Assembly (NCBI GenBank): GCA_002863155.1
Contig: PKED01000092.1
Location: 1-64,000 of the forward strand
From: Sphingomonadaceae bacterium
GTDB lineage: Bacteria; Pseudomonadota; Alphaproteobacteria; Sphingomonadales; Sphingomonadaceae
Reading direction: 5' to 3'
DNA length: 64,000 nucleotides
Below are positions 44,822-46,751 of this stretch, in pieces. Each line of letters starts with the position of its first letter. The first letter of the stretch is position 1. The notes below the pieces were generated by a model, which ran no database searches, was not told the DNA's origin, and worked only from the letters and a program-made list of their open reading frames with translations. A program made the translations under genes and the position numbers.

Positions 44822-45943
44822 ATGAAGATCGCGGTCCTCAAGGAGCAACTCGTTGGGGAACGCCGCGTCGCGGCGACGCCCGAAACGGTCAAGAAATTCG
44901 TCGCTCTGGGCGCGACGGTCGCGGTCGAATCCGGCGCGGGCGCGAACGCCGCGATCAGCGACGCACAGTTTGCCGATGCGGGTGCGAGCGTCGGCGATCG
45001 GGCGGCTACCGTCGCGGATGCCGGTATCCTGCTCGGCGTGCAGGGGCCCGATGCGGCGAGCATCGCGGGCGCCGCGCCCGGCGCGTGGGTCGTCGCCAGC
45101 CTCAATCCGTTCGTCGAGCGCGCTCGGGTCGACGCCTATGCCGCGGCGGGTTTCGAAGCGTTGGCGATGGAATTCATGCCGCGCATCACCCGCGCGCAGT
45201 CGATGGACATATTGTCGAGCCAGGCGAACCTTGCGGGTTACAAGGCGGTGCTCGACGCGGCCGCCGAATATGGCCGCGCTTTCCCGATGATGATGACGGC
45301 AGCGGGCACCGTCTCGGCTGCGCGCGTGTTCGTGATGGGGGTCGGCGTCGCGGGCCTGCAGGCGATCGCGACCGCGCGGCGGCTCGGCGCGCAGGTCTCC
45401 GCCACCGACGTGCGCGCCGCGACCAAGGAACAGATCCAGTCGCTCGGCGCCAAGGCGATCTTCGTCGAGAATGTGAAGGGGATCGAGGGCGAAGGCACGG
45501 GCGGCTATGCGACCGAGATGTCGGACGAATATAAGGCCGCGCAGGCCGAACTCGTGTCGAGCCACATCGCCAAGCAGGACATCGTCATCACGACCGCGCT
45601 GATCCCCGGCCGCCCCGCCCCGCGGCTGATCACCGACGCGCAGATCGCGACGATGCGGCCCGGCAGCGTGATCGTCGATCTCGCGGTCGAATCGGGCGGG
45701 AATGTCGAAGGATCGGTCGCGGGCGAAGTCGTCGAAATCCACGGCGTGCGCGTGGTCGGCCATCGCAACGTCGCGAGCCGCCTTTCGGCCGACGCATCGG
45801 CGCTGTTCGCGCGCAACCTGTTCAACTTCCTGTCGACCTTCTGGGACAAGGAAGCGGGCAAGCCGGTGCTCGACGAGGAAATCGGCAACGCCGTGCGGCT
45901 GACGCAAGGCGGCAAGGTGGTGAATGAGAGGCTGCTCGGGTGA
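44822..45943 (+). CDS. pntAA: Proton-translocating NAD(P) transhydrogenase, alpha subunit part 1
   Basis: A 373-residue soluble NAD(H)-binding subunit (domain I) of the membrane transhydrogenase that drives NADPH formation with the proton gradient. It has the AlaDH/PNT N-terminal domain (MKIAVLKEQLVGERRVAATP) and the nucleotide-binding domain with VFVMGVGVAGLQAIATARRL near residue 165 and VIVDLAVESGGNVEGS near 280. As in Rhodospirillum, the alpha subunit is split: the membrane part is a separate gene. Here that gene begins almost 500 bases downstream because a DUF559 element lies between them. Confidence 0.96.
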   Translation: MKIAVLKEQLVGERRVAATPETVKKFVALGATVAVESGAGANAAISDAQFADAGASVGDRAATVADAGILLGVQGPDAASIAGAAPGAWVVASLNPFVERARVDAYAAAGFEALAMEFMPRITRAQSMDILSSQANLAGYKAVLDAAAEYGRAFPMMMTAAGTVSAARVFVMGVGVAGLQAIATARRLGAQVSATDVRAATKEQIQSLGAKAIFVENVKGIEGEGTGGYATEMSDEYKAAQAELVSSHIAKQDIVITTALIPGRPAPRLITDAQIATMRPGSVIVDLAVESGGNVEGSVAGEVVEIHGVRVVGHRNVASRLSADASALFARNLFNFLSTFWDKEAGKPVLDEEIGNAVRLTQGGKVVNERLLG

Positions 45944-45962
45944 GGCGGGAGCCGCTCAAACC

Positions 45963-46012
45963 GAGTCTCCCCCTTTGGGGGAGCTGTCAGGCCGACGGCC
46001 TGACTGAGGGGG
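45963..46012. repeat. Left 50-bp hairpin repeat of the DUF559 element
   Basis: It begins GAGTCTCCCCCTTTGGGGGA and contains a second hairpin (TGTCAGGCC-GAC-GGCCTGAC). Its inverse complement matches the right repeat at 41 of 50 positions. The differences in the inner stem are compensatory (GGCC/GGCC here, GCGC/GCGC there), so the fold is preserved. Confidence 0.9.
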
Positions 46013-46018
46013 ATTGAG

Positions 46019-46438
46019 GTGGAAACACACACCCCGTCGGGCCTTGCCGCAGCGCGAAGGCTACGCCGAGAAATGTCGTTGCCGGAGGGTCTGCTCTGGC
46101 AGCACTTGCGCCAAAGGCCGATGGGCGTGAAGTTTCGCAAGCAGCACCCGATCGGGAACGCCGTGGTGGACTTTTATTGCGCCGCCCGGCGTATGGTCAT
46201 CGAAATCGACGGCATCGCGCACGATCTGGGCGATCGACCCGACAGCGATGCTCGAAGGGACGCGTGGCTGCGATCGTCGGGATATGACGTCGTTCGGGTT
46301 GCCGCTCGCGATGTCCTGCGTGACCCCGCCGGGATCGCTGCATCGCTTACCGCACTTTGCCTCGACAGGCCCCCTCCGTCAGCGCTGCGCGCTGACACCT
46401 CCCCCAAGGGGGGAGACTCAATCGGAGCAAGTTGCTGA
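46019..46438 (+). CDS. DUF559 family endonuclease-like protein
   Basis: A 139-residue protein with the DUF559/Vsr-like PD-(D/E)xK fold. Candidate catalytic residues are D51 ([11 protein letters not shown]), E62 and D64 ([11 protein letters not shown]). The N-terminal block [20 protein letters not shown] and the C-terminal [16 protein letters not shown] are typical of DUF559. The start is a GTG a few bases after the left hairpin repeat. The last 20 residues or so (from about residue 118) are encoded by the right repeat, so the natural C-terminus was probably altered or the repeat is part of the gene unit. Stop and pntAB start are separated by one base. Confidence 0.8.
46370..46419. repeat. Right 50-bp hairpin repeat of the DUF559 element
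   Basis: Inverse orientation to the left copy; it ends in CCCCCAAGGGGGGAGACTC and contains the stem GTCAGCGC-TGC-GCGCTGAC. It lies inside the 3' coding sequence of the DUF559 gene and 21 bases before pntAB. Confidence 0.9.
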
Positions 46439-46439
46439 C

Positions 46440-46751
46440 ATGGACTTCATCTCAACCCTTTCCATCTTCGTCATGGCGTGTTTCGTCGGCTATTACGTCG
46501 TCTGGTCGGTGACGCCCGCGCTGCACACGCCATTGATGGCGGTGACCAACGCGATTTCGTCGGTGATCATCGTCGGCGCGCTGATCGCGAGCGCGGCGGT
46601 CGGGATCGGCAGCGGCGGGGCGGCTTCGAAATGGCTGGGGCTGCTCGCGGTGGTGCTGGCGAGCGTCAACATCTTCGGCGGCTTTGCGGTCACGGCGCGG
46701 ATGCTGGCGATGTACAAGAAGAAGGACCGGCCCGCGCCGGCCAAGCACTGA
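46440..46751 (+). CDS. pntAB: NAD(P) transhydrogenase, alpha subunit part 2
   Basis: A 103-residue membrane subunit with three to four helices that forms part of the proton channel. The family pattern is seen as [40 protein letters not shown] and [20 protein letters not shown]. The short charged tail [11 protein letters not shown] faces the cytosol. It begins one base after the DUF559 stop, with GGAG in the right repeat's flank as the nearest ribosome site (about 12 bases away), so its translation may partly depend on read-through from the DUF559 frame. Confidence 0.95.

Follow-up and report, generated by a model that had tools for sequence, protein, structure and literature searches.

The DUF559 nuclease gene that splits the pnt operon of a Sphingomonadaceae bacterium lies between two inverted copies of a triplex-type hairpin, and this arrangement, a DUF559 gene with hairpins of its own, is a recurrent unit. 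It is probable (at roughly 0.7) that the unit is a small selfish system of enzyme plus repeat, in which the DUF559 protein, a Vsr/EDxHD-type PD-(D/E)XK nuclease, would recognise hairpins of its own sub-type. A wider reading, which we hold to be somewhat better than an even bet, is that DUF559 proteins are the missing enzymes of the bacterial Box C or intrastrand-triplex repeats, hydrolytic nucleases that would spread the hairpins of their own lineage as inverted doublets, even into essential genes.

The unit in the pnt operon

The window (the whole stretch of DNA that was analysed, 64,000 nucleotides of contig PKED01000092.1 in assembly GCA_002863155.1) contains a 457-base unit that splits pntAA and pntAB, with ends formed by inverted 50-base repeats matching at 41 of 50 positions. 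A recheck of the sequence bore out this description, which a model's first-pass annotation of the same DNA had given. The genes around the unit have profile matches to pntAA, pntAB and pntB, and the features are as follows.

44822..45943, + strand: pntAA, host operon gene 5' of the unit, ending with TGA at 45943
45963..46419, no strand: whole unit, hairpin - DUF559 - hairpin, 457 bases
45963..46012, + strand: left hairpin repeat, two-stem sub-type, from sequence and folding, of a design shared with other DUF559 loci
45967-45973 / 45977-45983, + strand: outer stem of the left repeat, CTCCCCC/GGGGGAG
45986-45993 / 45997-46004, + strand: second stem of the left repeat, GTCAGGCC/GGCCTGAC
46006-46012, + strand: third strand of the left repeat, GAGGGGG, mirror image of GGGGGAG, gene-facing
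46019..46438, + strand: DUF559 (PF04480) PD-(D/E)XK nuclease gene with GTG start, from open reading frame and profile match
46370..46419, - strand: right hairpin repeat, inverted copy of the left, 41/50 identical to it
46409-46415 / 46399-46405, - strand: outer stem of the right repeat
46389-46396 / 46378-46385, - strand: second stem of the right repeat, with compensated inner stem GCGC
46370-46376, - strand: third strand of the right repeat
46440..46751, + strand: pntAB, host operon gene 3' of the unit, with ATG start at 46440

Folding gives both window hairpins an 8-bp second stem with a 3-nt loop, and the inner part of this stem is compensated, GGCC/GGCC on the left against GCGC/GCGC on the right, just as the annotation had it. 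Single-strand folding yields z = -5.8, and an Rfam scan of positions 45900-46500 returned no family at its gathering score. The C-terminus of the DUF559 protein is encoded by the right hairpin, the stop codon lies 19 nt beyond that hairpin, and one base separates the stop from the ATG of pntAB; the overlap with the right repeat and the one-base spacing, too, had been read correctly.

Recurrence of hairpin pairs around DUF559 genes

Hairpin pairs were scored by local alignment of the left flank of a gene with the reverse complement of its right flank, using thresholds of at least 18 and at least 16. With 300-bp flanks the window unit scores 28, and none of 251 sliding window positions reaches 18. 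Within the family, 70 of 77 loci score at least 18 and 72 of 77 at least 16, the 251 window positions serving as control, and the median outer-to-outer length of the unit is 456.5 bp (70 loci). The 77-locus set is a non-random one, made up of the four loci of the source genome, 28 of the 30 high scorers of a search, seven pnt-site loci and 38 loci hand-picked from genomes with several DUF559 genes, and it leaves out two loci truncated at contig ends (L029, scoring 7.5, and L031, 11.0). Five family loci fall below 16 (L015, L036, L055, L190 and L202), including the tree-nearest gene to that of the window, L202, which has no hairpin pair and scores 8.5.

Beyond the family, a search of the phylum gave 28 new loci, of which only 10 score at least 18. 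Forty regions outside the family were hand-picked from the phylum listing, one per genome (L100 among them and the phylum-set locus L099 are one gene); 26 reach the threshold, as do 4 of the 3030 control positions taken from these regions, and in 28 the DUF559 position outscores all control positions of its own locus. For named GTDB loci, the query combined five DUF559 proteins whose loci bear hairpins, and among the best 80 of 570 matches 59 are positive, against 10 of 2663 control positions, with three loci of truncated flanks retained in the 80. The positives in these best 80 of 570 include, by label, single MAG loci from Chloroflexi (L285), Nitrospira (L281), Desulfobacca and Deltaproteobacteria (L247, L286) and Gastranaerophilales (L258), and the negatives include Anaerolineales, Bacteroidetes, Phycisphaeraceae and Deltaproteobacteria (L277, L254, L230, L273). 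The annotation had proposed asking whether the hairpin goes with DUF559 genes elsewhere, and it does, at four of four loci in the source genome and at the frequencies just given in the family, named and phylum sets.

Hairpins can function as transcription terminators, and the window unit could conceivably be an ordinary gene that was inserted into the pnt operon and has chance inverted repeats, or terminators, on its two sides. Chance is countered by the rarity with which control positions reach the threshold (0 of 251 in the window, 4 of 3030 and 10 of 2663 elsewhere) and termination by the lack, by eye, of a T-tract 3' of the window hairpins, and this explanation is barely credible.

A stem-loop with a mirror-image third strand

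Judged by their sequence, the DUF559-flanking hairpins share the published design of Box C or intrastrand triplex repeats, in which a mirror-image third strand could wrap around the purine arm of a stem-loop. In the window hairpin, the stem arm GGGGGAG is followed by GAGGGGG, its mirror-image purine third strand. A clean pyrimidine-first stem is present in 120 of 140 family arms. Downstream of it, with A/T swaps allowed, the agreement with a mirrored purine arm is 0.93, and shuffled sequence gives 0.725; the mirror reading is better than the direct one in 62 arms, worse in nine and equal in 49. Among 129 left arms, the third strand is gene-facing in 92, outward in nine and on both sides in two, with none seen in 14 and no clean stem in 12.

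In the two-stem clade (13 loci), 22 of 26 arms have a perfect second stem of at least 5 bp, in 15 different detected sequences, and it is therefore the fold that is kept rather than the letters, which the annotation had surmised from the window pair. The published triplex consensus, CCCTCNCCC-N3-6-GGGNGAGGG-N3-GGGNGAGGG, has no match in the source genome with its second loop relaxed to 1-4; it is found in relatives, for example at 38 places in genome G091.

Hairpin type follows nuclease lineage

A comparison of DUF559 proteins with their own hairpins, likewise proposed in the first-pass annotation, revealed that hairpin type follows nuclease lineage. Across the 72 family loci scoring at least 16, the similarity of a hairpin to that of its protein-nearest neighbour in another genome is 26.6, as opposed to 21.6±0.68 when hairpins are shuffled within genomes (maximum of 2000 shuffles, 23.95). 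When locus pairs with homologous flanks (182 of 2472) are excluded, the values are 22.35 and 16.69±1.21 (p<=0.0005), and the matching therefore reflects more than co-inheritance at one site. Related units with matching hairpins also occur at non-syntenic sites.

In the tree, all 12 loci typed as GACC or TGTCAG two-stem fall in one 15-row clade with support of 100/100, these type labels being regular expressions that leave 27 of the 77 family loci as "other". All eight pnt-site genes belong to this clade as well, and six of them form one group (99/82). Because the window gene and L055 fall outside that group, the sequences suggest that DUF559 arrived repeatedly at the pnt site; the tree would also accommodate a single origin. 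Copies of DUF559 within one genome are at most 45-66% identical (10 genomes with several copies), which means that the gene is not amplified in the manner of an IS, and the several lineages that share a genome have different hairpins. RAYTs, too, are said to be single-copy lineages.

Co-occurrence across genomes

Among 149 Enterobacteriaceae genomes, at least 10 Box C-like motifs occur in 15 of the 18 with a strong DUF559 match (E<=1.2e-15, a class that includes two partial genes, in G496 and G603) and in seven of the 131 without (p=8e-13). For genomes of at least 3 Mb, the counts are 15 of 18 and 7 of 75 (p=1.4e-9). The three DUF559-positive exceptions have 2, 0 and 0 motifs. Of the seven motif-rich negatives, G425 and G507 have weak matches resembling DUF559 remnants, G539 has a weak match in a very long frame, and G355, G530, G532 and G543 are without any match.

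The association extends to the phylum, where a near-published triplex motif is present in 47 of 86 DUF559-positive genomes and 14 of 213 negative ones (p=5e-19; CMH p=4e-9 when stratified over 16 families hand-chosen from 80). The near-published pattern does not capture other sub-types; the motif is missing from 39 of the 86, and nine genomes have at least three motifs without strong DUF559. A reversed-pattern control gives at most 1 for the near-published motif in the phylum; its counts in Enterobacteriaceae come near the real ones, and it is invalid there since that motif is mirror-symmetric.

These genome counts also bear on whether hairpin-rich hot spots could be moved by another enzyme, such as an IS200/RAYT-type Y1 transposase, with DUF559 as passive cargo. 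The doublets do resemble REPINs, and Y1_Tnp is weakly commoner in motif-rich genomes over all 149 Enterobacteriaceae (11 of 22 vs 33 of 127, p=0.04), but this link is gone at 3 Mb or more (11 of 22 vs 30 of 71, p=0.62), where the DUF559 link stays. Together with the match of hairpin type to DUF559 lineage and the scarcity of inverted hairpin pairs at the control positions (4/3030 and 10/2663), this makes hitch-hiking quite improbable.

By hand count, in 15 of 19 Enterobacteriaceae loci a motif lies no more than 60 nt from the 3' end of the DUF559 domain with its third strand gene-facing, and at those loci the inverted partner is further downstream and the 5' side is usually empty. E. coli-type ycjD has hairpins on its 3' side only; its 5' end bears a 17-bp palindrome of another kind. 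Published motif 9 (1,351,204-1,351,239) sits between fabI and ycjD, which is the E. coli DUF559 gene. At about 1351205-1351419 of K-12 (L140 7206-7241 and 7396-7420), this motif is accompanied by another, degenerate hairpin, which overlaps ycjD at its 3' end.

As a separate matter, ycjD was considered as a neat empty site and rejected, the three ycjD-negative E. coli strains examined having efflux genes there. In these strains (Sakai, AVS0051 and Ecol_AZ159; L158-L160), the ycjD region is missing and the efflux genes end beside sapF. Of the 5375 genomes that match, 3333 have the region at 80% coverage or more.

Polymorphic sites and gene-less doublets

Thirty of 38 matching pnt junctions were sampled, namely that of the window, 23 from the same genus and six at the order level. 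The annotation's view that pntAA and pntAB are normally adjacent stands in part: 16 of the 23 same-genus junctions are without DUF559, the kind of site it had proposed to look for, but the gaps there measure 35 to 852 nt (40-262 nt in the six order-level junctions), and the other 7 of the 23 hold DUF559. Two of the DUF559-less junctions bear hairpins, a bare single one in L048 and a doublet in L053, and L055 has a doublet beside a gene. Within the genus (L043-L065) the junction is a variable slot, some versions of which resemble small unrelated genes by eye.

In E. coli, three hairpin doublets are polymorphic between strains. The K-12 doublet between hrpB and mrcB is absent from four of five other strains, which are about 102-109 bp shorter with junction letters replaced, and the fifth has an internal deletion. 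The fepB-entC interval is 186 bp shorter than that of K-12 in the one strain examined, and alx-sstT retains its outer flanks but just one hairpin in one of two strains, the other (L171) having a longer, unrelated sequence. The pnt and E. coli polymorphisms represent gain or loss, in either direction. A search for target-site duplications at 70 family loci gave no signal (2 of 70 against 0.7 expected at 25 nt, and 0 at 60 nt). The suggestion that the unit is mobile or self-propagating has indirect support, and neither of the two outcomes that the annotation had named as refuting its reading was observed.

All four DUF559 genes found in the source genome lie between inverted hairpin pairs, the letters of which differ among the four loci, with L005 and L006 sharing one regular-expression class. 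The window sub-type has three copies in the genome at up to three mismatches, two flanking DUF559 and one in ileS. The sub-type of the DUF559 gene on contig 4 has seven, i.e., two flanking the gene, one adjoining it and four in two inverted doublets.

Doublets also occur in frame within genes. In rnr (contig 17, L292), homology to RNase R breaks at query position 110 and restarts at 172, a stretch that the solved RNase R chain spans as 318 to 329. One of two doublets in ileS interrupts homology from query 231 to 281, corresponding to 422 to 428 of the solved chain, and the second lies within the same open frame outside the aligned part; both genes were judged against solved homologues rather than relatives. 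A search for an empty ileS site with a 54-aa segment matched the source genome only, of 41. The ileS doublets are at about 886-988 and 1440-1545 of L002 (contig 9), and the ileS and rnr doublets encode Pro/Gly/Ser-rich insertions.

Several further arrangements were seen. L291 (contig 10, 37960-38079) is a GACC sub-type doublet between two frames that by eye resemble parts of metH. In two genera (L005 and L179), a DUF559 unit lies 3' of an apparent sufB (by eye) and is enclosed by a duplicated sufB 3' end; in L005 the copies, at 1354-1405 and 1869-1920, are 52 bp long and 79% identical. This duplication is too long and too diverged for an ordinary target duplication. Beside a DUF559 gene, L143 has nine triplex motifs in tandem (917-1422) with a period of about 59 bp, a BIME-like array.

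These observations weigh on another reading, that DUF559 is a repair nuclease serving the host, acting on extruded hairpins or triplexes to trim or resolve them, and that its own hairpins are a regulatory or mRNA element, co-inherited and immobile. Such a role would suit the 64 of 70 family loci in which the open frame runs into the right hairpin or beyond it. It would also suit Caulobacter VsrA, a protein with a DUF559 domain and a predicted function as mismatch-repair endonuclease, which drives an SOS response in cells that lack the methyltransferase ScmA (PMC12907096). However, the presence or absence of the unit at orthologous sites, the several lineages per genome with their different hairpins, the same pairing of nuclease and hairpin at non-syntenic sites and the in-frame doublets of ileS and rnr all count against it, and we think it improbable.

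The nuclease and a possible route of movement

The gene of the unit is DUF559, as annotated: the window protein matches PF04480 with 98.8 bits (gathering score 20.6, E=2.1e-28), and its one other Pfam match, to PF18741, is below the cut-off of that family. In 26 DUF559 sequences, 11 columns are invariant (R7, E14, W18, Q33, D42, E53, D55, G56, H59, R71 and G79, numbered along the aligned stretch). D42, E53, D55, H59 and others include the conserved acidic and polar residues of PD-(D/E)XK type, with a putative catalytic role, and because these columns are invariant the enzyme is probably active. The E. coli protein YcjD was earlier assigned to the PD-(D/E)XK superfamily (PMC1189080).

The AlphaFold model of the window protein has a mean pLDDT of 85. 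Its top structure matches, and the sole ones with E<=0.001, are NGO0050 (3hrl) and the homing endonuclease I-Bth0305I (3r3p), at a TM-score of about 0.70, and a profile search ranks the same two first (E=1.6e-33 and E=2.9e-4, respectively). Vsr (1vsr) is at rank 9 in the structure search, with a TM-score of 0.59 and E=0.018.

DUF559 is present in 127 of 149 family genomes and 112 of 299 phylum genomes. Relatives of the window's own DUF559 protein proved rare on plasmids (34 of 72,556 records) and phages (2 of 50,697). A role in anti-phage defence was considered and rejected, PADLOC having returned just DpdF (E=0.0015, 14 bits, 53 of 1078 positions).

The association, specificity, matching, co-occurrence, in-frame doublets and polymorphic sites are things that we observe; the chemistry, like the route of movement, is something that we infer. 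As a first step, the hairpin would be extruded as a single strand, for example on the lagging strand; the E. coli motif is reported to fold as a triplex in vitro (PMC4666352). DUF559, recognising its own sub-type, might then nick or cut at the hairpin, as its family and fold would predict. Host repair or recombination could next copy or re-insert the doublet elsewhere, at times with the gene. PD-(D/E)XK enzymes act by hydrolysis and, to our knowledge, do not themselves carry out strand transfer, and a further step by host enzymes would therefore be needed. Finally, loss would leave one hairpin or none; a single hairpin was seen at two sites and none at two sites. Bare inverted doublets would be non-autonomous derivatives of the DUF559 unit, as REPINs are of RAYTs, and the movement could be either transposition-like or homing-like.

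A strictly homing-type scheme, in which DUF559 cuts hairpin or doublet sites, break repair copies in the gene-bearing version and the doublets arise otherwise, deserves separate mention. The closest solved relatives, 3hrl and 3r3p, are in keeping with it, as are the lack of a target-site duplication signal at 70 loci and pnt junctions that include a gene-less doublet (L053) and a doublet beside a gene (L055). Nevertheless, motif numbers track DUF559 and hairpin type tracks the enzyme, so that the enzyme should multiply the repeats too, and at the window unit Rfam reveals neither a group I intron nor any other family. We judge this scheme unlikely, though the strongest of the rivals to a selfish enzyme-plus-repeat system.

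Relation to known systems

The arrangement had been likened to REP/RAYT with an unrelated enzyme family, and it was found as claimed. Common to both are a single-copy enzyme gene between palindromes, gene-less inverted doublets elsewhere and a repeat type that matches the enzyme lineage. The differences are that the enzyme is DUF559, of PD-(D/E)XK type, and that the window protein has no match to the Y1 (HUH, IS200-like) tyrosine transposase; that the hairpins have a mirror-image third strand; and that some doublets are in frame in protein genes. By eye, the feet of the window hairpins bear no GTAG or CGTC tag (as defined in PMC3733652). The DUF559 unit works like REP/RAYT, yet on enzyme and tag it fails as a RAYT.

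With Box C, PIT or intrastrand triplex motif (TM) repeats, the unit shares the hairpin with a third purine strand, the inverted pairs and the polymorphism between E. coli strains, and in some relatives the DUF559 hairpins match the published consensus; the window copies differ as a longer, two-stem sub-type off that consensus. Box C repeats have been recorded since the 1990s, occur in more than 260 genomes, with 23 copies in E. coli, and have been tied to local genome instability; the 2015 study reports no mobility gene nearby and calls their origin unclear, and the words "endonuclease" and "ycjD" are absent from its main text (PMC4666352). No paper linking DUF559 to Box C or triplex repeats was found in one open-access library with few subscription papers and no bioRxiv collection, and the 2015 study does not figure among the papers there that mention DUF559. 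We regard DUF559 as the best candidate for the enzyme that underlies Box C-type repeats.

Other comparisons are more distant. I-Bth0305I and NGO0050 have a similar fold, and were compared by fold and by title, 3r3p being titled a homing endonuclease (a mobile intron protein) and 3hrl a putative endonuclease-like protein. We know of no link between either and flanking triplex hairpins, and the likeness of DUF559 to a homing endonuclease consists of its fold and profile similarity to I-Bth0305I. The Vsr mismatch endonuclease has the Vsr superfamily fold in common with the DUF559 model. Caulobacter VsrA shares the DUF559 domain, with a predicted role in mismatch repair and no link to repeats in the text consulted (PMC12907096).

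The unit also differs from an insertion sequence or transposon, with identities within a genome of at most 66% (10 genomes) and no duplication signal (70 loci). Rickettsia palindromic elements put palindromic DNA into the reading frames of protein genes, as do the ileS and rnr doublets, and no enzyme for them is known to us.

Linking DUF559, a widespread nuclease of unassigned function, with Box C repeats gives each a testable role. On the wider reading, they would make up a class of selfish DNA parallel to REP/RAYT, with both parts unrelated, in Pseudomonadota and, according to single MAG loci, in other phyla. If this is true, bacterial selfish DNA would have a second REPIN-like class, of independent evolutionary origin, the hairpin-coded insertions in essential proteins such as those of ileS and rnr would be explained, and DUF559 genes with their hairpins would offer natural enzyme/site pairs of nucleases with structure-plus-sequence specificity.
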